35,550 nucleotides of DNA from Fidelibacterota bacterium (lineage in GTDB: Bacteria; Fidelibacterota; Marinisomatia; SCGC-AAA003-L08; TS1B11): contig CP070638.1 of NCBI GenBank assembly GCA_020354025.1, positions 2,982,372-3,017,921 of the forward strand, read 5' to 3'. Of this stretch, positions 4,554 to 28,338 are shown in pieces. The stretch's first letter is position 1. Each line of letters begins with the position of its first letter. Made by a program: the position numbers and the translations under genes. Under the pieces are notes generated by a model. That model was given only the letters and a program-made list of their open reading frames with translations, was not told the origin of the DNA and made no database searches.

Positions 4554-7500
4554 ACGAATTAAGCATAGGGGTAGTAGTATGTGAATCGATGTACAAAGCG
4601 ATAGAGGAATGCGCAGCATCAATGAAGGAATCTTTCCGGATCTATCCAATAATCCCCTCATGCACCTTTACTGTGGGTATCAACCTGTTCAAACATTACC
4701 TAGACAGATCCATTATTGAGAATGATGTGACACTTTTGGCATACGGGACCTGCCACCCCCAGATCTTGGAACTGCTTGCAGAGTATGGTAACCGAGTCAT
4801 CAAAGTGAAAGGAAACAATTGCTATGAAATGTTCCTTGGCACTGAGAAATATGCCGAGTACCATAAAAAACGCTACTGGATGCTTAATGAACCGTTTTTC
4901 ACCAAGTGGAAAAAGGATATCCTTGTCGGATATGGTGCAGGTACTGTCAATGGCAGTATGCTGATAGAGGATGCTTATGAAAAGCTCGTCTACTTGAGGT
5001 TTGAGAAGGATCAGCTTGACATAAATCTTGTGGAAGATTTCGCAGACAATGTGGGATTAGAGTACGAGGTTCATATGATCGACACGGGCAACCTGAAGCG
5101 GCTGCTTGAGGAAGCACTGGCTTCCGCCTCTCTAACCCAGCGGAGAAAGTTGCCTGAGTCCTCACTGAAATATCCATCTCGACCAGATGTACAGACTATC
5201 CTTGATAACATTGGTGAGATTATTTACAGAATAGATGTACACACAAAGGAGTTCACGTTCATAAGCCCGCAGGTAGAAACGCTTCTTGGCTATACACAAG
5301 CGGAATTTATAGACATCCTAAATAACCATGTTATAGTGCCATTATATCACGAAGACGAGAGAGAAAAGGTTATGATCGGGAGATATAACTTTCTTATCAA
5401 GTGCCTGAATGAGCGCATGCAAGAGGCCTACCAAATGGAATACCGCGTGAAACATAAAAATGGCAATCTTGTCTGGGTGATGGAAAGTGTGTACCCCACC
5501 TATGGTTCAATGGGAGTCATTGAGTCCTTTGTAGGCAAGATAGTGGACATCACCGAGCGCAAGCGGGTCGAAGAAGCATTGCAGAAAGCTCATAATGATC
5601 TCGAGAAACAGGTGAAGAAGCGCACCGCGGAGCTCGAAGCCCTGACTGAAGAACTGAAAAACGAGATTCTTGAACGTCAACAGGTAGAGAGGGATTTGAA
5701 CCGGCTCAACCGGGCCTATTTGATGGTTTGCGAATGCAATCAGGAGTTGATTCGGAACGCCGACGAGCAAGCGTTACTAAATAATATATGCAGAATTATT
5801 ACCGGGATGGGCGGATATCGATTAGCATGGGTCGGCTTTACCGAACACGATGAAAACAAGACTGTTCTACCTGTGGCCAGTGCCGGGTACGAAGAAGGAT
5901 ACCTCGAAAGTTTAGACATTACGTGGGCTGATGAACCAACGGGCCGTGGACCTACAGGCACAGCTATCCGAACAGGAAGGCCGGCTATCGCGAAGAATAT
6001 TCTTACAAATCCACAATTTGCCCCCTGGCGCAGGAGAGCTATCAAGCGCGGCTATGCCTCCTCTATCGCCTTGCCTCTACACATCGACCAGGAGAATATA
6101 GGCGCCCTGAACATCTATGCGCAGGACCCCGAAGCATTTGATGAAGAGGAAGTGAATCTGCTGATCAAGCTGGCTGACAACCTTGCGTATGGTATTATCT
6201 CCCTGCGCATACGTGATGAGCGTAATCGAGCGGAGGAGGCCCTCAGGGAATCGGAAGAATTGTACCGGACGCTGGTGGAAACTGCTCCCGAGGGGGTGAG
6301 CATGACCGATCTTGAGGGCCGGCTCGTTTATGTATCTCAACGGATAGTAGAACTACATGGTTACGAACGGGCCGATGAGCTGCTCGGACGGAATGCCCTC
6401 GACCTCATTGCACCTGAAGACCGCGAGAAGGCGATAAAGAATATTCAAAAAACCCTGGAGGAAGGATCCTTAAGGGAACAGGAGGTTATCCTCCTGAGAA
6501 AAGATGGGACGCACTTTATAGGTGGTGTAAATGCCACCGCACTTAAAGGTGCCGATGGCCAGGCGAGGGCTTTTATCACCACCTCGCGGGATATCACTGA
6601 GCGCAAACGAACGGGGCAGGCTCTGAGGGAGAGCGAGAGAAGCCTGGCTGAAGCCCAGCGTATCGGCCGCATAGGTAACTGGGACCTGAATCTGGTCAAA
6701 AATGAATTGAAATGGTCAGATGAGATTTATCGGATATTTGGTCTGGAGCCTCAGGAATTCGGGGCAACCTATGAAGCCTTCTTGGATGCCGTTCACCCTG
6801 ACGATAGAGAATATGTGGACACCATGTATGCCAAATCCGTAAAGAATAGTACTCCATATGATATTGTGCATCGTATAATCAGAAAATCCGATGGAGAGGT
6901 CCGGTACGTTCATGAGAAATGTGAACATTTCAAGGATCAGACCGGGAAAATGCTTCGGTCAATCGGAACGGTTCAGGACATCACCGAACTCAAGCGGGCG
7001 GAGAACGAGCTCAAAGCCACGCAGGAACAACTGCGAAACCTCTCTACTCACCTTCAATCTTTAAGGGAAGAAGACAGAGCCAGCCTTGCCCGTGAGATTC
7101 ACGACGAGCTAGGCCAGGCATTGACGGTCTTGAAATTTGGTTTAATGGAACTAAAGAACGCGCTGCCCGCCGATAAGATTTCTCTCGTTGAAAAGGTTAC
7201 TTCAATGGCTGAGTACATAGATGCAACAGCTCAGACAGTCAATGAGATTGCAACCCAATTAAGGCCGACGCTCCTGGATGAACTGGGTTTGGTGGAAGCA
7301 ATCGAATGGGAGGTAGAAGAATTTGAAAACCGTACTGGAATTAAGTGCGAGCTCATGGTAAAACCTGAGGAAATGGTGGTAGATCGGGATCGTTCCACAG
7401 CGATCTATCGTATTGTGCAAGAAGCCTTGACGAACATTGCCCGCCACGCACAAACAACCAGAAGTGCCGTAAGTCTGAAAATGTCTGATGGCAAGCTGCA

Positions 7501-17847: not shown

Positions 17848-19440
17848 TTACTGTAATGTGTTTTCGGCAGGCGCGATGGCCGCCGACTTGAAGAGTTTAT
17901 AGTTCAGGCTGTCCCGCAGTGCCTGCCAGCTGGCTTCGATGATGTTTTCCGATACGCCCACCGTAGACCAGCTATCTTTGCCGTCGCTGGTCTCAATAAG
18001 GACGCGGACCTTGGCACTGGTGCCGTGTTTCTGATCCAGTACCCGCACCTTATAGTCGACCAGCCTGACCTCGGAGATCTCGGGATAGAAGCGAGTCAGA
18101 GCTTTACGCAGGGCGTTATCCAGCGCATTAACAGGCCCGGTCCCTTCGGCGGCGGTATGTTCGGATTCGCCGCCTACGTTCACCTTCATGACCGCCTCGG
18201 AGTAATTGTGCCCTTCCTTGTCGTAGCGGACGTAGACCCGGGATTCGACGATGCGGAAATAGGGTGCGAACTCACCGGTATGCCGCCGCAGCAGGAGCTC
18301 GAATGAGGCCTCGGCGCCATCGTACTGGTATCCTTCGTATTCGAGGGCCTTCACCTGCTTCACGATCTCCCGGGCCTGTCCCTTGCGCCCGTTAGCGTCG
18401 AGATCGATGCCCAGTTCCCTGGCCTTGTATTTGATATTACTTTGGCCGGACAGATCCGATACCAACACATGCCGGCTGCTGCCAACCGCCTCCGGTTCAA
18501 CGTGCTCATACATGGCCGGGTCTTTTATTACGGCGCTGACGTGGATGCCTCCTTTATGGGTGAAGGCCGATTTGCCCACGAAAGGTGCGCGGCTGTCAGG
18601 GGCCAGGTTCATGATTTCGGCGACGCTCCGGGAGAGTTCGGTCAATCGTGCCAGGTCGATATCGTGCCGGAGTTCCAGGCCGAGTTTCAGCAGCAGGTTC
18701 GGGATAATGCTGCACAGGTTGGCGTTGCCGCAGCGCTCGCCCACACCGTTGATGGTGCCCTGCACGTGCGTGACTCCCTCTTCAACGGCTGCCAGGGTGT
18801 TTGCCACGGCCAGATCGCCGTCGTTATGGGCATGGATACCCAAGGAGGCCGATACCTGCGGTCGTATTTCGCGGACGATGGCGGCCACTTCGCTGGGACG
18901 GCAGCCGCCGTTGGTATCGCACAGAACGAGGGTATCGGCACCGGCGGTTTCGGCGGCCTTGACCATGGCCAGGGCGAAGGCGGGATCGTCCTTATAGCCG
19001 TCGAAGAAATGCTCGGCGTCGAAAATCACCCGGCGTCCATGCTCCCTCAGGTGGGCTACGGACTCGTGGATAATAGTCTCGTTTTCGTCACCATCCAGTC
19101 CCAGGCCAACCTGGGCGTGTAATCTCCAGGTTTTACCAAATAGGGTTACTATCGGGGTCTCCGCTTTCAGCAGGGCCTGAAGGTTCGGGTCGGAGGCCGT
19201 GGTATCCGGCCGGCGGGCGGTAGAGCCGAACGCACACACCTGGGTATTGTGAAGCTGCAGGTCCTTAACCTTCAGGAAAAAGGCCTCATCCCGGGGGTTG
19301 CTCCCAGGCCAACCGCCTTCGATGATGTCAATGCCGAAGTCGTCCAGGGCCTGGGTGATGTGCAGTTTGTCGGAAACGGAGAGGTTGATGCCCTCGGCCT
19401 GGGTGCCATCCCGCAGGGTTGTATCGAATAGTTCCACCAT
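17848..19440 (-). CDS. cimA: (R)-citramalate synthase
   Basis: 530 residues of the DRE-TIM metallolyase family, CimA branch. It condenses pyruvate and acetyl-CoA to citramalate, which LeuC/LeuD convert onward to 2-oxobutanoate for isoleucine without threonine deaminase. Seen: [18 protein letters not shown] (catalytic Arg and metal Asp), IHAHNDGDLAVANTLAAVEEGVTHVQGTINGVGERCGNANL (metal HxH-type site), and a C-terminal regulatory domain (about 400-520). The LRDGTQAEG form and the long C-terminus separate it from LeuA at 21265. Its ATG shares one base with the leuD stop (TGATG), so the two are coupled. Isoleucine feedback through the C-terminal domain is expected from the family. Confidence 0.92.
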   Translation of the reverse strand: MVELFDTTLRDGTQAEGINLSVSDKLHITQALDDFGIDIIEGGWPGSNPRDEAFFLKVKDLQLHNTQVCAFGSTARRPDTTASDPNLQALLKAETPIVTLFGKTWRLHAQVGLGLDGDENETIIHESVAHLREHGRRVIFDAEHFFDGYKDDPAFALAMVKAAETAGADTLVLCDTNGGCRPSEVAAIVREIRPQVSASLGIHAHNDGDLAVANTLAAVEEGVTHVQGTINGVGERCGNANLCSIIPNLLLKLGLELRHDIDLARLTELSRSVAEIMNLAPDSRAPFVGKSAFTHKGGIHVSAVIKDPAMYEHVEPEAVGSSRHVLVSDLSGQSNIKYKARELGIDLDANGRKGQAREIVKQVKALEYEGYQYDGAEASFELLLRRHTGEFAPYFRIVESRVYVRYDKEGHNYSEAVMKVNVGGESEHTAAEGTGPVNALDNALRKALTRFYPEISEVRLVDYKVRVLDQKHGTSAKVRVLIETSDGKDSWSTVGVSENIIEASWQALRDSLNYKLFKSAAIAPAENTLQ

Positions 19441-19946
19441 CAGCCTGAAATCCTTTCTCCGGTTTGTTGGCGGGTAATATAGTTCAGCAGTCCCCCGGCT
19501 GATACGATAGCCTGGATCATGGAGGTGAAGGGAGGGAAGGTATAAACCTCATCTTTGGTGATGTTAGTCACCTTGCCACCGGTCATGTCGATCTCGAGCT
19601 GATCACCGCTGTTCACCTTACGGCTGATACCGGGGATTTCGATGGCATAGAAGCCGTTACTGATGGCGTTGCGGTAGAAGATACGGGCGAAGGAATCGGC
19701 CATCACGGCCCGCACGCCAGCGCCCCGCAAGGCCCAGACGGCGTGCTCCCGGCTGGAGCCGCAGCCAAAGTCCTCGCCGGCCACGATGAAGTCTCCCTCC
19801 TTGACCTTATCCACAAAATCACCGTCGATGTCTTCCATGGCATGCCGGGCGAGGGTGGCCTCATCGTGGATATTCAAATACCGGGCCGGGATGATCTCGT
19901 CGGTGTTGATATGGCTGCGTTGAAAAAGGTGTACGGTTCCCCGCAT
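19440..19946 (-). CDS. leuD: 3-isopropylmalate/citramalate dehydratase small subunit
   Basis: 168 residues. It forms the swivel subunit that pairs with LeuC. NTDEIIPARYL and GEDFGCGSSREHAVWAL are the family's substrate-recognition motifs. The length fits the short, type 2 LeuD found with HacA-like LeuC proteins, which commonly serve both leucine and citramalate routes. It lies 12 bases after leuC and one-base-overlaps cimA, matching a dual role. Confidence 0.95.
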   Translation of the reverse strand: MRGTVHLFQRSHINTDEIIPARYLNIHDEATLARHAMEDIDGDFVDKVKEGDFIVAGEDFGCGSSREHAVWALRGAGVRAVMADSFARIFYRNAISNGFYAIEIPGISRKVNSGDQLEIDMTGGKVTNITKDEVYTFPPFTSMIQAIVSAGGLLNYITRQQTGERISG

Positions 19947-19958
19947 CAGGACTCTCTC

Positions 19959-21233
19959 CTATAAGTAGTCTCTCGGATCGGTTATGGTGCCATTGACGGC
20001 CGTAGCCGCCGCCGTTGCCGGGCTGGCCAGATAAACCTTGGAGTCCGGGTCTCCCATGCGGCCCGTGAAGTTCCGGTTGGTGGTGGAGACGCAGACCTCA
20101 CCGGCTGCCAGTACCCCCATATGCCCCCCGAGGCAGGCGCCGCAGGTGGGGGTGGAAATCACGCAACCCGCCTCATAGAAAATGTCGAAGAGACCCTCGT
20201 CAAGGGCCCGCTTCCACGTCGTCGTAGTGGATGGAATGATAATAGTGCGGGTTCCGTCAGCCACCTTGCGATCCTTCAAGATAGCAGCGGCGATACGCAG
20301 GTCCTCGATACGGCCGTTAGTACACGAGGCGATATAGACCTGATCCACTTTCACCCGCTCTTCATCGGTAAGGGAAGATACGGTACGGCCATTGGAAGGC
20401 AGTCCGGGCAAGGCCACGACAGGCTCCAACCGGGAGACATCTATGGTCAGCTCGTCGGCATAGGTTGCGTCATCGTCCGGCAGGTGAACGGTCCAATCGG
20501 TCTGCCTGGCCCTACCCTCCAGGTACTCGAGGGTGATATCATCCGCGGCCATGACGGCGCATTTGGCTCCGGCCTCGATGGCCATGTTGGTAATGGTCAT
20601 GCGGGCCTCCATTGACATATCCTGCAGAGCCGGGCCGTGATATTCCAGGGCCTGGTAGCGGGCACCGTCCACCCCAATGCGGTGGATCAGCTCCAGGACG
20701 ACGTCCTTGCTATAGACTCCGGCAGGCAACCGACCCGCCAAGGTGACCTTGATGGTCTCGGGAACCCTGAACCACAGCTCGCCGGTATACAAGACCGCCG
20801 CCAGGTCAGTGGAGCCGATCCCGGTTGAAAACGTGCCAAAGGCTCCGTAGGTACAGGTATGGGAATCGCCGCCTACCACCGTCTGACCGGGAACGATGTG
20901 ACCCTGCTCTGGGAGCAGGGCATGACAAATCCCATGACGCCCCAGCTCGTAATAATGTTCAAGCTTATTATCAGCTACCCAATTCCGGATGGTTCGGGCC
21001 AGCTCCGCGCTTTTAATATCCTTATTAGGGACGAAGTGGTCCGGCGTTACCACTACTCTGTCAGGATCGAAGATCGTCTTGAGCCCGTGCTCCTCCAGCA
21101 TTTTTATGGCCGGTGGAGTAGTGACCTCATGGCACATGACCAGGTCGATCCCGGCCTGGATAATATTGCCGGGGATGACCTGGCCATCGATGCAGTGGTC
21201 AGCCAGAATTTTTTCAGTTAATGTGTTTCCCAT
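19959..21233 (-). CDS. leuC: 3-isopropylmalate/citramalate dehydratase large subunit
   Basis: 424 residues, aconitase family, type 2 (HacA-like) length rather than the about 465 of E. coli LeuC. The [4Fe-4S] ligands are in ASCTNGR and in [11 protein letters not shown], both intact. [25 protein letters not shown] is the substrate-site signature. Together with LeuD it isomerises 2-isopropylmalate to 3-isopropylmalate and is likely also to act on citramalate. It starts 31 bases after leuA. Confidence 0.96.
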
Positions 21234-21264
21234 GTTACGTAGTTTTCTCTCAAGGCGACGGTTA

Positions 21265-22830
21265 TTACGGGGCGGATTTCAGGTTCTCTTCCGGTCCATC
21301 GGCAGCCGCCCGGGCTTCGTTGAGTGCGTTCAAGTAGGCCTTTACGCTGGCTTCGATGATGTCGGTGGAAACGCCTCGACCGGTAAAGGGCTGTCCTTTC
21401 TCGCGAATCTGAACGATAACCTCTCCGAGGGCTTCCCGCCCGGCCGTCACCGAGCGCACCTGATAAGACTCCATATTGGTGTCGTGATCGAGAGCCCGAT
21501 CAATGGCCTTGAAGCAGGCGTCAACCGGGCCGTCACCGTTTGCCGATTCCCGGATATCCTTTTCTTCCACCTTCAGGGTGATAGTGGCGGTGGCGGGAGT
21601 AGTGGTACCAGCGCTGACATGGAAGGAGTCCAATTCATAGTGATCCTGATGCCGGAAGATCTCATCCCCCATGAGGGCTCGCAGGTCATCGTCAAAGACC
21701 TCCTTTTTCTTGTCGGCCAGTTTTAGGAACATATGGTAAACCTGGCCCAGCTCTTCCTCACTCAGATGGTAGCCCAAGGCTTTCATCCGGGCGGCCAGGC
21801 CGTGCCGGCCGGAGTGCCGTCCCAGAATGATCCGGGTCTGAGACAGGCCTATCGATTCCGGGGTCATGATCTCGTAAGTGCGTTTGTCCTTGAGGACACC
21901 GTCCTGGTGGATGCCCGCCTCGTGGGAGAAAGCGTTATCACCTACAACGGCCTTGTTGGGCTGCACTATCAGGCCGGTAAAGGCTGAGACCATTTTGCTG
22001 GTGTTAATGATCTCTTGGAAGCATATATCGGTATGGAAGTCCCAGTACTCACCGCGTACCTTGAGCGCCATTACGATTTCTTCGAGGGAGGCGTTGCCGG
22101 CCCGCTCACCGATGCCGTTTATGGTGCACTCAACCTGCCGGGCGCCGTTCTGCAGGGCGACCAAGGAATTGGCTACGGCCAGTCCCAGATCATTATGACA
22201 GTGCGCGCTGATCACGGCCTGATCGATGTTGGGCACCCGCTGCCGCAGCTCGGTGATTATGGTCCCGAATTCGGCCGGCATAGTATACCCGGTAGTATCG
22301 GGGATGTTCACCGTGGTGGCTCCGGCGTCGATAGCTGCTTCGACAACCTCCGCCAGGTAGTTGATATCGGTACGGCCGGCGTCTTCGGGGGAGAACTCCA
22401 CATCGTCCGTGAAGGTCTTGGCATAGGTCACAGCGTCCCGAGCCATCTTAAGGATGGAAATCCTTTTCTCCTTAATGGTCTTGCCGTACCGCGCGTCCCG
22501 GAACTTCTCTCCGATATGGATATCGGAAGTACCGATAAAGGTGTGAATCCTGGAAGAGTCGGCTTTTTTCAATGCATCGCTGGCTGCCTTGATATCGGGT
22601 TCTACTGCCCGTGCCAGAGCGGCTACGGTCACGTCCACACTATCAGTGATACGCTCCACTGCCTCGAACTGGATTGGGGAGGAGACGGGAAATCCGGCCT
22701 CGATGACATCCACTTTCAGCTGTGCCAGCTGGCGGGCGATCTCTACTTTCTCCGGGACATTCAGTGATGCCCCCGGCGACTGCTCCCCGTCGCGCAAGGT
22801 GGTATCAAAGATGACGATTTTCTCACTCAT
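21265..22830 (-). CDS. leuA: 2-isopropylmalate synthase
   Basis: 521 residues. It commits 2-oxoisovalerate to leucine by adding acetyl-CoA. The catalytic barrel has [61 protein letters not shown] and [14 protein letters not shown]. The C-terminal LeuA allosteric domain (about 390-510) is complete, so leucine feedback inhibition is expected. It differs from cimA in the GEQSPGAS loop. A 120-base gap separates it from ilvC; a small open frame fills that gap. Confidence 0.96.
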
Positions 22831-22954
22831 GGTATATTTTCCATTCGCTTATGCAGTTAGTGCCGACAGGCTTTCTGTCCAGTAGGCCCCGTTTGAAGTC
22901 CTCATGGCCGAGTTCTGCATCAGGCCTTGGGTGGATGGGCTTTAATGCACTCAT
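22823..22954 (-). CDS. Candidate 43-residue protein between ilvC and leuA
   Basis: An open frame starts with an ATG that overlaps the ilvC stop as ATGA and ends 8 bases inside leuA. The product ([20 protein letters not shown]..., ending KIYHE) is charged, without a signal or membrane segment, and I do not recognise it. The overlaps at both ends are what a coupled gene would show, and GAGG lies about 12 bases upstream. It has no run of leucine codons, so a leu leader peptide is unlikely. It may still be chance. Confidence 0.3.
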
Positions 22955-23967
22955 GCAGATTGTTTAGCCTCAGCGCCGCCCGTGAGCCAGTCCATCATCC
23001 GGCGGAGCTCCACGCCTACTTTTTCAATGGGGTGGGCTTTCACCTCGCTGCGCAGTTTTTCCATAACCGGCTGACCCTTGGAGTTCTCCTCGATCCATTC
23101 CCTGGCGAAATCGCCGTTCTGTACTTCCTTCAGGATCTTCTTCATTTCGGCCCGGGTCTGATCAGTAATGATCCGGCTGCCCCGGGACATGCCGCCATAC
23201 TCAGCCGTGTCGCTGACCGAGTAATTCATCCGGCTCAGCCCGCCTTCGTAATACAGGTCCACTATGAGCTTCAATTCGTGCAGGCACTCGAAATAGGCCA
23301 GCTCCGGCGGATAGCCGGCTTCGGTAAGGGTCTCGAATCCGGCTTTGATAAGCTCCGCAGAACCGCCACACAGCACCGCCTGCTCGCCGAACAGGTCCGT
23401 TTCGGTCTCATCCTTAAAGGTGGTCTCGATCACGCCAGCGCGGGTGCCGCCGATTCCTTTGGCCCAGGCCAGAGCCAGGTCCCTGGTCTGCCCGGAGGGA
23501 TCCTGGTAAACGGCGATAAGGCAGGGGACACCGGTGCCGTTCTGAAAAGTACGCCGGACCAGGTGTCCCGGGCCCTTGGGAGCGATCATCATGACGTTTA
23601 CGTCTTCAGGGGGGACGATCTGGTCGTAGTGTATATTGAATCCGTGGGCGAAGGCCAGAGTGTCGCCGGACTGCAGATTGGGGGCGATCTCGTTTTCGTA
23701 GACGGTGCGCTGGTGCTGATCCGGTACGAGTATCATGATCACCTCGGACCAGGCGCACGCCTCAGAGATGGTCTTTACGTCCATGCCGTCGCCTTCCGCC
23801 TGTTCCGTGAAAGGATCCCCGGGTCTCAATCCCACACAGAGGTTCATCCCGCTGTCCCGCAGGTTCAGGGCATGGGCGTGTCCCTGGCTGCCGTAGCCCA
23901 GGACAGCGATTTTCCTGTCTTTCAGGACGGATAAATCGGCGTCGTTGTCATAATACATATTGACCAT
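22951..23967 (-). CDS. ilvC: Ketol-acid reductoisomerase, class I
   Basis: 338 residues. It isomerises and reduces acetolactate and acetohydroxybutyrate with Mg2+ and NAD(P)H. The Rossmann motif [19 protein letters not shown] (22-40) is intact. The knotted C-terminal domain has the metal site [21 protein letters not shown] and the downstream [19 protein letters not shown]. In the cofactor-specificity loop [13 protein letters not shown], Arg48 is kept, but the two serines that usually grip the NADPH phosphate (positions 51 and 53) are Asp51 and Phe53, which hints at NADH use. It lies 13 bases after ilvN. Confidence 0.96.
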
Positions 23968-23980
23968 GTTGGCCCTCCCT

Positions 23981-24532
23981 CTAGTTCGCTTCGTTCACTG
24001 TTGTATTGGATGTGCTGGTATCACTATCAGGCCCATTGCCGTTGGTAGGCTTGTCCGCACCCCTGGTGAGCGCCACTTTCCCAGCCCGCATGATTTCGAT
24101 TATCCCGAACTGTTCCAGCACTTCGATGATGGAATCTATCTTATCCGGTTCGCCGGTGACCTCGATGATGAGGGACTGCTTGCCCACGTCCACTATCCGT
24201 GCCCGATACATGTCGGCCAGGTTTCTCACCTCACCCCGGGTGGAACTGTCGGCCTTGACTTTGATCAGGGCGTGTTCGCGGATGACACACGGTTGGTCGG
24301 TAACATCTACCACGTCGATAACGTTCACCATCTTGAGTAGATTCTGGCGGATTATGTTACGCCTCAGGTGCTCCTCTTCATCGGTGGCGATGGTCAGCCG
24401 GCTGGCTCCGGGAATCTCACTGTGGCCAACCACCAGGCTTTCGATATTATAATTCCGGCGCCGAAACAGGCTGGCAATGCGGTTAAGAACGCCGGGCTTG
24501 TCTTCGACGAGTGCAACGAGTATCTGTTTCAT
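23981..24532 (-). CDS. ilvN: Acetolactate synthase small (regulatory) subunit
   Basis: 183 residues. An N-terminal ACT domain ([33 protein letters not shown]) binds valine and feeds back on IlvB. The second half (about 80-160) is the conserved small-subunit C-terminal domain ([37 protein letters not shown]). A Ser/Thr/Asn-rich tail of about 25 residues is an addition without a known role. It is 18 bases from ilvB and 13 from ilvC. The symbol ilvH would do as well. Confidence 0.95.
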
Positions 24533-24550
24533 GGCATCAGCTCCAGTTTT

Positions 24551-26275
24551 TCAGGCGTCGGTGTTTTTGAATTCCGGGTGGGGCCGGCGGATCATCTGGT
24601 GCAGGTCGGCACCAGCAGGAACCATGGGGTAGACCATATCGTGCTGCTCCACCACGAACTCGATAAGCACAGGCCCCTCGTGCTTACTGGCCTTTTTCAT
24701 TGTTGGCAGAATATCCTCCAGCTTCTCCACCCGGTAGCCCGGCAGGCCGTAAGCCTGGGCCAGTAAGAGGTAATCAGGGCTGGAGATCGGGGTTTCGGCG
24801 TAGCGGGCTTCGTAGAACATCTGCTGCCACTGGCGCACCATACCCAGGTAGCCGTTGTTGATGATGGCTATTTTAACATTAGAGTCCTCCTGAACAGCGG
24901 TACCCAGCTCCTGAAGTGTCATCTGAAAGCCACCATCCCCGACGATGGCCCAGATTTCCTTGTCTTTCAGGAAAAAAGCGGCCCCCAAGGCTGCCGGTAC
25001 CCCGAAGCCCATAGTGCCCAATCCCCCTGAGGTGATATGAGTATGGGGGCGCTCGTGGGAGTAGTACTGGGCGGTCAGCATCTGGTGTTGACCCACATCG
25101 GTGACGATGACGGCGTCACCCCCGGTCCCTTCCCAGATTACCCGGATAACCTGGGCACCCATGAGACTTTCGGTTTCCATTTTCAGCACATCCCGTTGAT
25201 CTGCCTCTTCACGCCAGCCGTCGATAGTCTTCATCCAATCGGGACGCTTCCGCTGCTTTACCTTGGGAATGATCTGCCGCAGGACGGTGCCCAGGTCGGC
25301 GTTGATACCCACATCCACCCGGACATTCTTGTTGATCTCCGAGGCATCGATTTCGATGTGGATCTTCTTCGAGTTGGGTGAATAGGTTTTCAGATTCCCC
25401 GTCACGCGATCGTCGAAGCGCATGCCGCAGGCGATGAGCAGATCGGCTTCCTGGATGGCGTGGTTGGCCATAGCGGTCCCATGCATGCCCATCATACCCA
25501 GGTTATAGGTGTGGCTCGCCGGTATGCTGTCGATGCCCAGCAGGGTGGTTGCCACCGGAATGGTCGCTTTTTCAACCAGCTGGACCAGTTCGTCCGTGGC
25601 CCCGGACATAGTGACTCCGTGACCGGCGAGAATCACCGGCTTTTTAGCGCCGTTAATCAGTTCCAGGGCGTCGGCTACCTGCTGATCGGTGGCTCTTTCC
25701 GGCGGATGATATCCGGGCAGGCTGATCGGATCATCGGGATAAACAAATTCGGTCGAGGCTATCTGCACGTCCTTGGGTACATCGATGAGTACCGGTCCCG
25801 GCCGTCCCGTGCGGGCAATATAGAACGCCTCCCGGATGGAATGGGCCAGTTCCTCCACATTCATGACCAAGTAGCTATGCTTGGTCAGAGGCAGGGTGGC
25901 ACCGGTGATATCGGTCTCCTGGAACGCATCGCCACCAATGGCCGCAGTAGAGACCTGTCCGGTGATGCAAACGATAGGAGACGAGTCCATCATCGCCGTG
26001 GCGATACCGGTGACGAGGTTGGTGGCGCCGGGACCTGAAGTGGCCATAGCGACTCCCACCTTGCCGCTGACCCGGGCGTAGCCGTCGGCCATGTGAGCGG
26101 CGCCCTGCTCATGGCGCACCAGGACATGGCGCACTTTGTCCCGATACTGGTTCAATGCGTCATAAATGGGTAGGGTAGCCCCGCCGGGATAGCCAAAGAC
26201 TACCTCCACACCCTCCTGCGCCAGGCATTCCCAGATGATCTCAGCACCGGTCAGGGTTTGTTTATTCTTGCTCAT
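24551..26275 (-). CDS. ilvB: Acetolactate synthase large (catalytic) subunit
   Basis: 574 residues, ThDP-dependent. It makes 2-acetolactate from two pyruvates, or 2-aceto-2-hydroxybutyrate from pyruvate and 2-oxobutanoate. Seen: the catalytic Glu loop VVFGYPGGATLPIYDAL...RHEQGAAHMADGYAR, the FAD/ThDP-binding central domain, and the ThDP motif IVGDGGFQMTLQELGTAVQEDSNVKIAIINNGYLGMVRQWQ. MFYEARYAETPI and the C-terminal VEQHDMVYPMVPAGADLHQMI are typical of AHAS. It is 27 bases after ilvD. Confidence 0.97.
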   Translation of the reverse strand: MSKNKQTLTGAEIIWECLAQEGVEVVFGYPGGATLPIYDALNQYRDKVRHVLVRHEQGAAHMADGYARVSGKVGVAMATSGPGATNLVTGIATAMMDSSPIVCITGQVSTAAIGGDAFQETDITGATLPLTKHSYLVMNVEELAHSIREAFYIARTGRPGPVLIDVPKDVQIASTEFVYPDDPISLPGYHPPERATDQQVADALELINGAKKPVILAGHGVTMSGATDELVQLVEKATIPVATTLLGIDSIPASHTYNLGMMGMHGTAMANHAIQEADLLIACGMRFDDRVTGNLKTYSPNSKKIHIEIDASEINKNVRVDVGINADLGTVLRQIIPKVKQRKRPDWMKTIDGWREEADQRDVLKMETESLMGAQVIRVIWEGTGGDAVIVTDVGQHQMLTAQYYSHERPHTHITSGGLGTMGFGVPAALGAAFFLKDKEIWAIVGDGGFQMTLQELGTAVQEDSNVKIAIINNGYLGMVRQWQQMFYEARYAETPISSPDYLLLAQAYGLPGYRVEKLEDILPTMKKASKHEGPVLIEFVVEQHDMVYPMVPAGADLHQMIRRPHPEFKNTDA

Positions 26276-26302: not shown

Positions 26303-27979
26303 TTAGACCGCCATTACAGCGCCGGTATTAGCCGATGTCACCATACGTGCATACCGGCCCAGGTAGCCGGTTTGAATCTTCAATTCAAAGGGTGGAAGGT
26401 TACTCAGGCGGGTTTCGATCTCTTCGTCGCTCAATTCCACCGCCAAACGATGGTCAGGTATATCGATGTGTATGATGTCCCCGTTGCGCAGAGCGGCCAG
26501 GGGACCCCTTTCAGCCGCTTCCGGGGAGATGTGCCCGATGCAGGCCCCGCGGGTACCACCGGAGAAGCGGCCATCGGTGATAAGAGCCACCTTATCACCC
26601 AGCCCCAGTCCCATAATGGCGCTGGTGGGAGTCAGCATCTCGGGCATGCCGGGGCCACCCCTGGGGCCCTCATAGCGAATGACCACCACCTCACCGGGCT
26701 GGACCTCACCGCTCAGGATGCCGCTCACTGCTTCTTCCTGCGATTCGTAGATCCGGGCCGGTCCCGAGTGAGTCAGCATGACCGTTTCCACCGCCGCCGT
26801 CTTTACCACGGCACCCTGGGGAGCCAAATTTCCGAACAGTATCGCCAGACCGCCATCTTCAGAATAGGGATCATCCACAGAGCGAATGACTTCTTGATCT
26901 TTGATGCCGGCATCGGCGATGTTCTCACCCAGGGTCTTGCCGGTAACGGTGATGCAGGACAGGTCCAGGGCGCCGTCAACCCGGGACAGTTCGTTCAGAA
27001 TAGCGGATATGCCTCCGGCCGCGTCCACATCTTCCATGTGCACGGCTCTGGCGGCAGGACTAACGCGGCAGATGTTGGGTACCCGCCCGGACAGCCGGTT
27101 CAATTCCTCCAGGTCGAAGTCCACGCCGGCCTCATTAGCAATGGCGAGGGTGTGCAGGACGGTATTGGTGCTGCCGCCCATGGCCATGTCGAGCGCGAAG
27201 GCGTTGCAGAGCGCCGCCCTGGTGATGATGTCCCCAGGTTTGAGGTCCTGTTTCACCAGGTCCATGATGCGGGGGCCGGTCTGCCGGGCCAGTTCGCGGC
27301 GCCGCTCATCAACCGCCAGTACGGTGCCGTTGCCCGGCAGGGCGATTCCCAGGGCTTCCATGAGGCAGTTCATGGAGTTGGCGGTGAACAGTCCCGCACA
27401 AGAACCGCAGGAGGGACAGGCATAATCCTCCAGCTCCTGGAGGCGGGTGTCATCGATGGTGCCGGCCTTGTATTGGCCAACGCCCTCGAAGACGGTAATG
27501 AGGTCGACCTTATCCCCCGAGGGAGTACGGCCGGCTTTCATTGGTCCGCCGGAAACGAAGATGGTGGGTATGTTGAGCCGGACAGCGGCCATGAGCATCC
27601 CGGGAATGATCTTATCACAGTTGGGTATACAGACCAGGGCATCCAGGCAGTGGGCTTCAGCCACAGTCTCCACACTGTCGGCGATGAGTTCCCGACTAGG
27701 AAGGGAGTAGCGCATTCCCAGATGCCCCATTGCGAGGCCGTCATCAACGCCGATGGTATTGAACTCGAAGGGGACGCCGCCAGCCTCACGGACCGAGTCT
27801 TTCACCACCTTGCCGAAGTCCTGCAAGTGTACATGGCCCGGTATCAGATCGATATATGAGTTGGCGATACCGATGAACGGCTTCTGGAAGTCTTCCCGGC
27901 CGCGGATCACACCGGTGGCCTTCAGGAGGCTGCGGTGTGGTGCCCGCTCAAAACCGAGCTTGATGGTATCCGAACGCAT
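26303..27979 (-). CDS. ilvD: Dihydroxy-acid dehydratase
   Basis: 558 residues from ATG 27979, preceded by GAGGAA; a TTG at 28000 in frame is rejected because the ribosome-binding site lies after it. It dehydrates dihydroxyisovalerate and dihydroxymethylvalerate. The Fe-S ligands are visible in [14 protein letters not shown] and in [40 protein letters not shown] is the C-terminal substrate motif. It is the first structural gene of the block and is preceded by a leader region with a peptide ORF and competing stems. Confidence 0.96.
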
Positions 27980-28040
27980 ACTTGGTTCCTCGTTTAGCAA
28001 TCATATTCGCACCGCACTTCAACCGTAAACCCGGCCCCTG

Positions 28041-28127
28041 GGGCAGTTAATCCCGTTTTCTTTTTTTTGGCTAGTTAGGAAATTTTAGTGGTGGCACGAT
28101 TGGGATTAACTGCCCGTCTAACTAGCC
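28041..28127 (-). promoter_or_regulatory. Interlocking inverted repeats, putative ilv attenuator
   Basis: On the minus strand four segments lie in order. A is GGCTAGTTAG (28127-28118), B is GGGCAGTTAATCCC (28115-28102), C is CTAACTAGCC (28078-28069) and D is GGGATTAACTGCCC (28054-28041). A pairs perfectly with C (10 bp) and B with D (14 bp). The pairings interlock, so they compete or form a pseudoknot. A contains the stop codon of the Ile/Val/Leu-rich leader ORF. C is followed by an A tract and D by no clear U tract, so the off state may not be a simple intrinsic terminator. Confidence 0.7.
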
Positions 28128-28268
28128 TGCCAGAGCCAGGCTTACGGGTAGTACGATAATCCCAATAACTACAGCGACGATCAGCTGACCGCCAATTGCG
28201 AGCAGAGTCTGCACAGTGGTCCCGCGGGGACTCCAGCAGGCAGGGTGATATACAGACCGTTTACTCAT
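28122..28268 (-). CDS. Ile/Val/Leu-rich leader peptide of the branched-chain operon
   Basis: 48 codons, ATG 28268 to TAG 28124-28122. The second half is TLLAIGGQLIVAVVIGIIVL then PVSLALAG; 17 of residues 19-48 are Ile, Val or Leu. The overall shape, with a BCAA run, then Pro, then a Gly/Ala/Leu tail, recalls the E. coli IlvL leader peptide. It ends in the first of four complementary segments and lies 143 bases ahead of ilvD. Stalling of a ribosome at these codons when charged tRNA is short would leave segment A free to pair with C and so change folding ahead of ilvD. An alternative is a small membrane protein, since the same run could form one transmembrane helix. No strong ribosome-binding site is seen. 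Confidence 0.65.
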   Translation of the reverse strand: MSKRSVYHPACWSPRGTTVQTLLAIGGQLIVAVVIGIIVLPVSLALAG

Positions 28269-28306
28269 AATAGATAACGCCAGGTACTCGCACCTTTATG
28301 CAGTGG

Positions 28307-28338
28307 CAATTCTAAGGCAATCCATCCGTTAATTGCAA
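28307..28338 (-). promoter_or_regulatory. Promoter of the ilv operon
   Basis: Minus strand: TTG (28338-28336), a 21-base spacer and TAGAATTG (28314-28307), close to TAnnTTTG. The same bases also read as TTGCAA-N18-TAGAAT, a sigma-70-like promoter. The leader ORF starts about 35 bases further on. Confidence 0.45.

Follow-up and report, generated by a model that had tools for sequence, protein, structure and literature searches.

How might the operon that begins with ilvD sense a shortage of amino acids if its leader is without the usual terminator? We examined this question in the window, the whole stretch of 35,550 nucleotides analysed here, in which the promoter, leader and operon described below lie on the reverse strand. 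The operon's first gene, ilvD (26303–27979; dihydroxy-acid dehydratase, Pfam PF00920 and PF24877), starts at an ATG at 27979, in register with the start codons of its relatives, and is preceded by a putative Shine-Dalgarno sequence, GAGGA (27987–27991), recognized from sequence. Then come, in this order, ilvB, ilvN, ilvC, leuA, leuC and leuD, followed by a second LeuA-like gene encoding another HMGL/LeuA-dimer protein (together 17848–26275; from open reading frames and Pfam). Upstream of ilvD lies a leader peptide ORF of 48 codons, MSKRSVYHPACWSPRGTTVQTLLAIGGQLIVAVVIGIIVLPVSLALAG (28122–28268, read from 28268 to 28122). An earlier note on this DNA had counted 17 Ile, Val or Leu codons among the final 30, and our re-count gave the same figure. 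A sigma-70-like promoter, TTGCAA-18-TAGAAT (28309–28338), matches the consensus at 9 of 12 positions, so placed that the leader transcript would start near 28302; an equivalent TTGNNN-17/18-TANNAT stands upstream of all nine leaders of the family described below. A genome of the same genus encodes a homologue of the leader peptide (57% identity). The window thus has what is looked for in an attenuator, a conserved short ORF, rich in control codons, upstream of a biosynthetic operon (ilvD–leuD).

Which strands of this leader can pair with one another? Five segments matter. S1 (28118–28127; GGCTAGTTAG) was segment A of the earlier note, which had the ORF ending inside it; the stop codon TAG, at 28124–28122, does lie there. 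S2 (28099–28115; GGGCAGTTAATCCCAAT) is its segment B, extended. S1' (28069–28078; CTAACTAGCC) and S2' (28041–28054; GGGATTAACTGCCC) are its C and D. The two stems that it described as perfect are both found: S1:S1' has 10 bp (28118–28127 with 28069–28078) and S2:S2' has 14 bp (28102–28115 with 28041–28054). It had also called them mutually exclusive, which is true of nested drawings only. The two helices have no bases in common and are interleaved; since they cross while using different bases, they can coexist as an H-type pseudoknot, a structure that the same note had allowed for. The real competitor of the pseudoknot helix S2:S2' is a pairing absent from its list, that between S2 and a fifth segment, S0 (28157–28166; ATTGGGATTA, Ile-Gly-Ile and onward). 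S0 is the leader's own Ile-codon stretch, ATT GGG ATT A, and forms a perfect 10 bp with 28099–28108, thereby sharing bases of S2. It resembles S2', GGGATTA occurring in both, so that S2 has two alternative partners, one internal to the codons and one downstream. S0:S2 and S2:S2' are the mutually exclusive folds, and each is conserved with compensation.

Could such repeats arise by chance? We shuffled the stretch from promoter to ATG 400 times, preserving dinucleotides. A perfect 14-bp inverted repeat occurred in one of the 400 shuffles, and the full set present in the real sequence (14 bp together with two repeats of at least 10 bp) in none. We conclude that the leader ORF and its repeats exceed chance. 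As had been remarked before, no U tract follows S2' on its 3' side in the window. The sole match of a terminator scan, a five-pair stem on the opposite strand, was rejected.

If the pairings matter, how do they behave in relatives? The earlier note had proposed that its reading be judged by whether relatives keep the ORF and whether the stems covary, and on both counts it stands. The comparison set is the nine ilvD leaders found in the window's GTDB family (f1), two of them near-identical and the relatives derived from metagenome-assembled genomes. All nine keep the ORF, the hairpin and the pseudoknot, with compensatory changes. An Ile/Leu/Val-rich leader ORF likewise precedes ilvD at 59 of the 61 loci of the phylum whose upstream regions were examined. 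Across the nine sequences the pseudoknot is paired at 91.7%, with seven pairs changed on both sides; when the strands are slid against one another by 1–3 columns, pairing falls to 17–41%. Taken separately, S1:S1' has 86.7% of its cells paired, with both-sided changes in 4 of 10 pairs, and S2:S2' has 95.2%, with such changes in 3 of 14. The hairpin S0:S2 is paired at 100% in eight sequences and includes one column in which G-C becomes U-A. At one position the covariation is three-way (S0 G/T, S2 C/A, S2' G/T), and adjoining it is the single C-A mismatch of S2:S2' in G010 and G006. The sequence GGCTAG within S1, encoding Gly-stop, is invariant across the nine leaders. Since what is conserved is RNA pairing among three strands, together with a reading frame, a DNA operator is by inference unlikely.

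The nine include two separate ilvD operons from each of two genomes, G001 and G002. Each of these loci (L004 and L011, L005 and L010) has an attenuator of its own of the same design, and ORFs of the size of ilvB and ilvN follow the second ilvD in L029. In another genome, G007, an intact leader stands before a broken ilvD (L019, 1697–2366): the ORF ends at 2101, and no more than a C-terminal part follows ahead of ilvB, which points either to a truncated gene or to a collapsed assembly.

How far does the knotted form extend? In a covariance model search of 245 genomes of the phylum, it appeared only in the window's own family; weak matches in G015 (L020) and elsewhere in the window's genome, G000 (L025), were rejected on inspection. 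A DNA pattern scan of genome contigs returned only Neomarinimicrobiota and one Clostridium tandem array (L028). The latter (5000–5370, from a Clostridium sp. MAG) is built from units GGCTAGCCCCCAGGCT...GGGGTTAATCACAATATGGCCTCTACGAGGCCTT, which the pattern picked up, and we judged it an unrelated repeat array. The named relatives that bear the motif are Candidatus Neomarinimicrobiota, in keeping with the earlier assignment of this DNA to a probable FCB bacterium.

Might the leader instead be an RNA that binds a metabolite or a protein, a riboswitch or a protein site in which the ORF is incidental? The actinobacterial LEU element has been argued to be such a case, mutation of its codons reportedly having no effect (PMC1262725). 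Here, Rfam (T-box, riboswitches, amino-acid leaders) gives no match at the gathering cut-off or even at E ≤ 1, the ORF and its stretch of Ile/Leu/Val codons are conserved throughout the phylum while the RNA structures differ, and the codon segment S0 is itself a strand of the switch. We regard a binding RNA as very unlikely. What these comparisons favour is a ribosome-mediated attenuator of ilvD–ilvBNC–leuACD whose two states are the hairpin and the pseudoknot, a reading that we consider probable. The logic of ilv attenuation that the earlier note had recognized is supported, so far as sequence can speak, by the conservation of the ORF and the covariation of the stems, with the rival pairing moved to the Ile codons.

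If S2 has two partners, what decides between them? In transcripts cut before S1', S0:S2 forms in all nine leaders (8.4–9.9 expected base pairs). By duplex energies, the two helices of the pseudoknot summed outweigh S0:S2, and the S2:S2' duplex of the window alone amounts to −28 kcal/mol. Equilibrium folding with ribosome masks gave mixed results; for the window's leader it favoured S2:S2' with or without the ribosome and showed no switch, and the tools used represent nested structures only, not pseudoknots. Switching must therefore rest on the order of folding during transcription, and the claim of a switch on that order together with the comparison of relatives.

We propose that, by default, the end of the nascent leader would fold on itself, S0 pairing with S2 around S1 and leaving S1' and S2' free. 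This hairpin would be the fold of an unhindered transcript, or of one that the ribosome has left at the stop codon. Upon starvation, a ribosome stalled on the Ile/Val/Leu codons of S0 would block S0:S2 and leave S1 and S2 exposed. As S1 begins about 30 nt beyond S0, S1 and S2 could wait during the stall for S1' and S2'. Taking up these strands, they would form the pseudoknot, which would be the ON state. Two considerations assign the pseudoknot to ON: a biosynthetic operon should be induced by starvation, and the corresponding leader-end strand is an antiterminator in a related clade whose leaders have terminators. There the strand is complementary to the 5' arm of the terminator, which supports the view that S1 belongs to the ON state. 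Stalling, the identity of the ON state and the output in the window's copy are what we infer. Since both folds are kept in the relatives, it is very probable that the leader senses amino-acid shortage through a stalled ribosome, without the usual terminator.

Could the polarity be the opposite, with the pseudoknot OFF and the S0:S2 hairpin ON? S2:S2' is, after all, the most stable pairing in the window at the duplex energy given above, and it dominates at equilibrium. On the other hand, all that stalling in S0 can do is break S0:S2, and with this polarity a biosynthetic operon would then be shut during starvation. Both the pairing of the leader-end strand with the terminator's 5' arm in the related clade and the predicted exposure of the ribosome-binding site by the pseudoknot in four relatives (below) also speak against it. 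We consider this polarity quite unlikely.

What, then, would the switch act upon? Four relatives suggest an answer. In G002a, G008, G002b and G001b, S2' lies 27–28 nt from the ATG, and free S2', together with a conserved GATTC that precedes it, folds with the sequence through the Shine-Dalgarno. The hairpin so formed has z scores of −4.2 to −7.0, with none of 200 shuffles as stable. The computed cost of opening the ribosome-binding site is 20–24 kcal/mol when S2' is free and 8–12 kcal/mol when S1' and S2' are held away. Covariation within this hairpin, with three double-change cells over four sequences and a value reached in 61 of 500 shuffles, is suggestive only. In these leaders, free S2' and the GATTC element would cover the ribosome-binding site of ilvD, and formation of the pseudoknot would take that fold away. 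Such an output would be translational attenuation, perhaps backed by Rho polarity. Given the predicted hairpin and its release by the pseudoknot, the output in the four relatives is probably translational. Two more leaders, G010 and G001a, contain an inserted extra hairpin, and there the partner of S2' is still near the Shine-Dalgarno (z −2.7 and −2.9).

The window itself behaves differently from the four. Its ribosome-binding site shows no such hairpin (z +0.8; for G007, likewise, z 0.0), and blocking S1' and S2' leaves the opening cost unchanged, at 5.8 versus 6.1 kcal/mol. In G001a and the four short-spaced relatives, S2' has a pairing strand adjacent to the Shine-Dalgarno; the window contains no match to that strand. 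For the window's copy we therefore commit ourselves to the sensor half of the mechanism only. The missing strand would be expected if this copy were a decaying attenuator, in which the sensor still folds, the output element has been lost and expression is constitutive; S1:S1' and S2:S2' are, however, both perfect in the window, which argues for continued selection, and decay seems to us unlikely.

Might the same sensor act through Rho instead? With S0:S2 formed, the region separating S2 from S2', rich in C and poor in G, would be bare and would load Rho; the pseudoknot would hide it. Consistent with this, none of the 37 leaders of the window's IlvD clade has a U-tract terminator, the leader is followed by a tract in which C exceeds G (median maximum C−G per 40 nt of 12, versus 6 in the terminator clade), a good one in many of the relatives, Rho is encoded in 10 of 11 genomes of the family, the window's included, and a uORF with an additional action through Rho is on record (PMC12121999). 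But in the window itself this tract is weak, equally extreme values occurring at 1.4% of window positions, and against strand-random C/G the value is 0.11. Part of the C richness, moreover, stems from the pairing strands, and four relatives have a clear ribosome-binding-site hairpin instead, although both outputs can coexist. Termination by Rho as the output is a possibility to which we give somewhat less than even weight. For the window, the evidence from its relatives makes translational output, with or without Rho polarity, appear likelier than Rho acting alone.

How do leaders elsewhere in the phylum compare? In families f23 and f26–f29 a classic hairpin and U tract follows the leader in 22 of 24 cases by scan, and in G221 a terminator with a longer loop was seen by eye. 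In these families the end of the leader ORF and the terminator's 5' arm are complementary, for example GGGAAGGGG in L086; this is the textbook antiterminator arrangement. In the window's IlvD clade (families f1, f3, f9, f14, f16, f18 and f30), in which the scan found no U-tract terminator in any leader, the distance from stop codon to ATG is 108–163 nt. On the IlvD tree the terminator state changes once, on a branch with an SH-aLRT of 99; this count omits G051 and treats G221 and G203 as terminator-bearing, and which way the change ran depends on where the tree is rooted. No Ile/Leu/Val leader is recognizable at two of the phylum's sampled ilvD loci, L102 (G051) and L103 (G203). In G203 a hairpin is kept; in G051 there are short AT-rich repeats instead.

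Within the terminator-less clade the downstream pairings vary. In f16 and f18 the stop-codon segment pairs far downstream, with compensatory changes seen by eye in the alignment (GACCG/CGGTC, GACTG/CAGTC, GACAG/CTGTC), and this pairing is nested, not knotted. Family f30 shows a comparable effect on the ribosome-binding site through elements of its own, with a gain of 1.8–7.7 kcal/mol. When the whole clade was tested for gating of this site by the partner of the stop-codon segment, the result was clear in f30 and in some members of f18, f9 and f16 and negative in others, so we do not claim such gating for all.

Two of these families deserve a separate remark. In f30 (L075, L076 and L078), a hairpin CTTCAG/TTTCAG...CTGAAGG recurs in the final 60 nt before ilvD, over or beside the Shine-Dalgarno, with its 5' arm next to the strand that pairs with the stop-codon segment of the leader; it is possibly another translational attenuator, of nested form. 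In f3 (G031; L034, reverse complement), ilvD is preceded by a different ilv leader, MHYDNRNINILQYVSLLSPSLYSIIIIVLILVITLPIT followed by a stop. Its end can pair as CACCTTGCC:GGCAAGGTG and CACCTGATT:AATCAGGTG, or free these strands for nested partners downstream, and there is no U tract.

Joined to the sensor and the candidate output, the phylum view leads us to a fuller scheme, which we advance tentatively and hold at a little below even. A pseudoknot switch would be gated by the ribosome: the Ile codons copy S2', the translating ribosome sets whether S2 is partnered by those codons or within the pseudoknot, and the pseudoknot strips an anti-Shine-Dalgarno element from ilvD. On a single occasion, within one clade of Neomarinimicrobiota, an ancestral attenuator with an intrinsic terminator would have traded its output for another while retaining its sensor. 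If so, attenuators throughout the phylum have the leader peptide as their common sensor but differ in output: one clade uses intrinsic termination and the other a long-range or pseudoknot switch that has no terminator, with one step on the IlvD tree between them. It would then offer a natural series for studying how attenuators change mechanism, and would add the pseudoknot as a regulatory state of amino-acid attenuation.

How does this leader relate to known systems? With the classic ilv, leu, trp and his attenuators of the E. coli type it shares a leader ORF rich in codons of the pathway, directly upstream of the operon, and alternative folds that overlap the control codons and the stop codon. 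It differs in that its clade is without an intrinsic terminator, and in having a long-range pseudoknot as its alternative fold in place of a simple antiterminator hairpin. The ilvD leaders with an intrinsic terminator, found in other Neomarinimicrobiota, share its leader-ORF sensor; such a terminator is absent from the window's clade. In erm/cat-type control and in E. coli toiL–topAI, where translational control by a uORF with Rho behind it is documented (PMC12121999), a downstream ribosome-binding site is freed by a stalled ribosome, as it would be here, and in the four relatives the predicted hairpin over that site competes with the starved-state fold. Here, however, the signal would be amino-acid shortage and the release would come from a pseudoknot, and the hairpin is not evident in the window.

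The closest precedent that we found is the LEU element, a leader peptide and pseudoknot upstream of leuA in actinobacteria, known from bioinformatics and disputed in mechanism (PMC1262725). There too, a branched-chain operon is preceded by a leader with codons for these amino acids and by a conserved pseudoknot, with no obvious terminator. The element belongs to another phylum and is set apart from the window's leader by its description: its leucine codons pair with the Shine-Dalgarno of leuA in a basal stem, whereas here S2 is the partner of the codon segment and ilvD is the target gene. The ilvD (WRC-18-2) motif, also a structured RNA upstream of ilvD, is a weak riboswitch candidate confined to Veillonella, with terminators in some instances, and is again distinct by description (PMC8632094). 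Among the papers that we searched, none dealt with leader-peptide attenuation in Marinimicrobia or Neomarinimicrobiota. Judged by its sequence features, the window's leader appears to be ribosome-mediated attenuation in a new form.

Do these bacteria use leader-type attenuators elsewhere? In the same family, the trp operons are preceded by attenuators of the classic kind, a leader followed by a terminator, which indicates that attenuators of the leader type are in use in the lineage. They serve as a helpful internal control. Predicted intrinsic-terminator attenuators thus exist in the window's lineage, but not at ilvD. About 200 nt upstream of trpE (L049 in G000, and L045, L047, L048 and L050–L052) there are short ORFs that contain Trp codons, singly or in tandem, and a hairpin that ends in a long T run, such as AACCCTGTTCAAATCGGACGGGGTTTTTTT, gives these leaders the look of classic trp attenuators.
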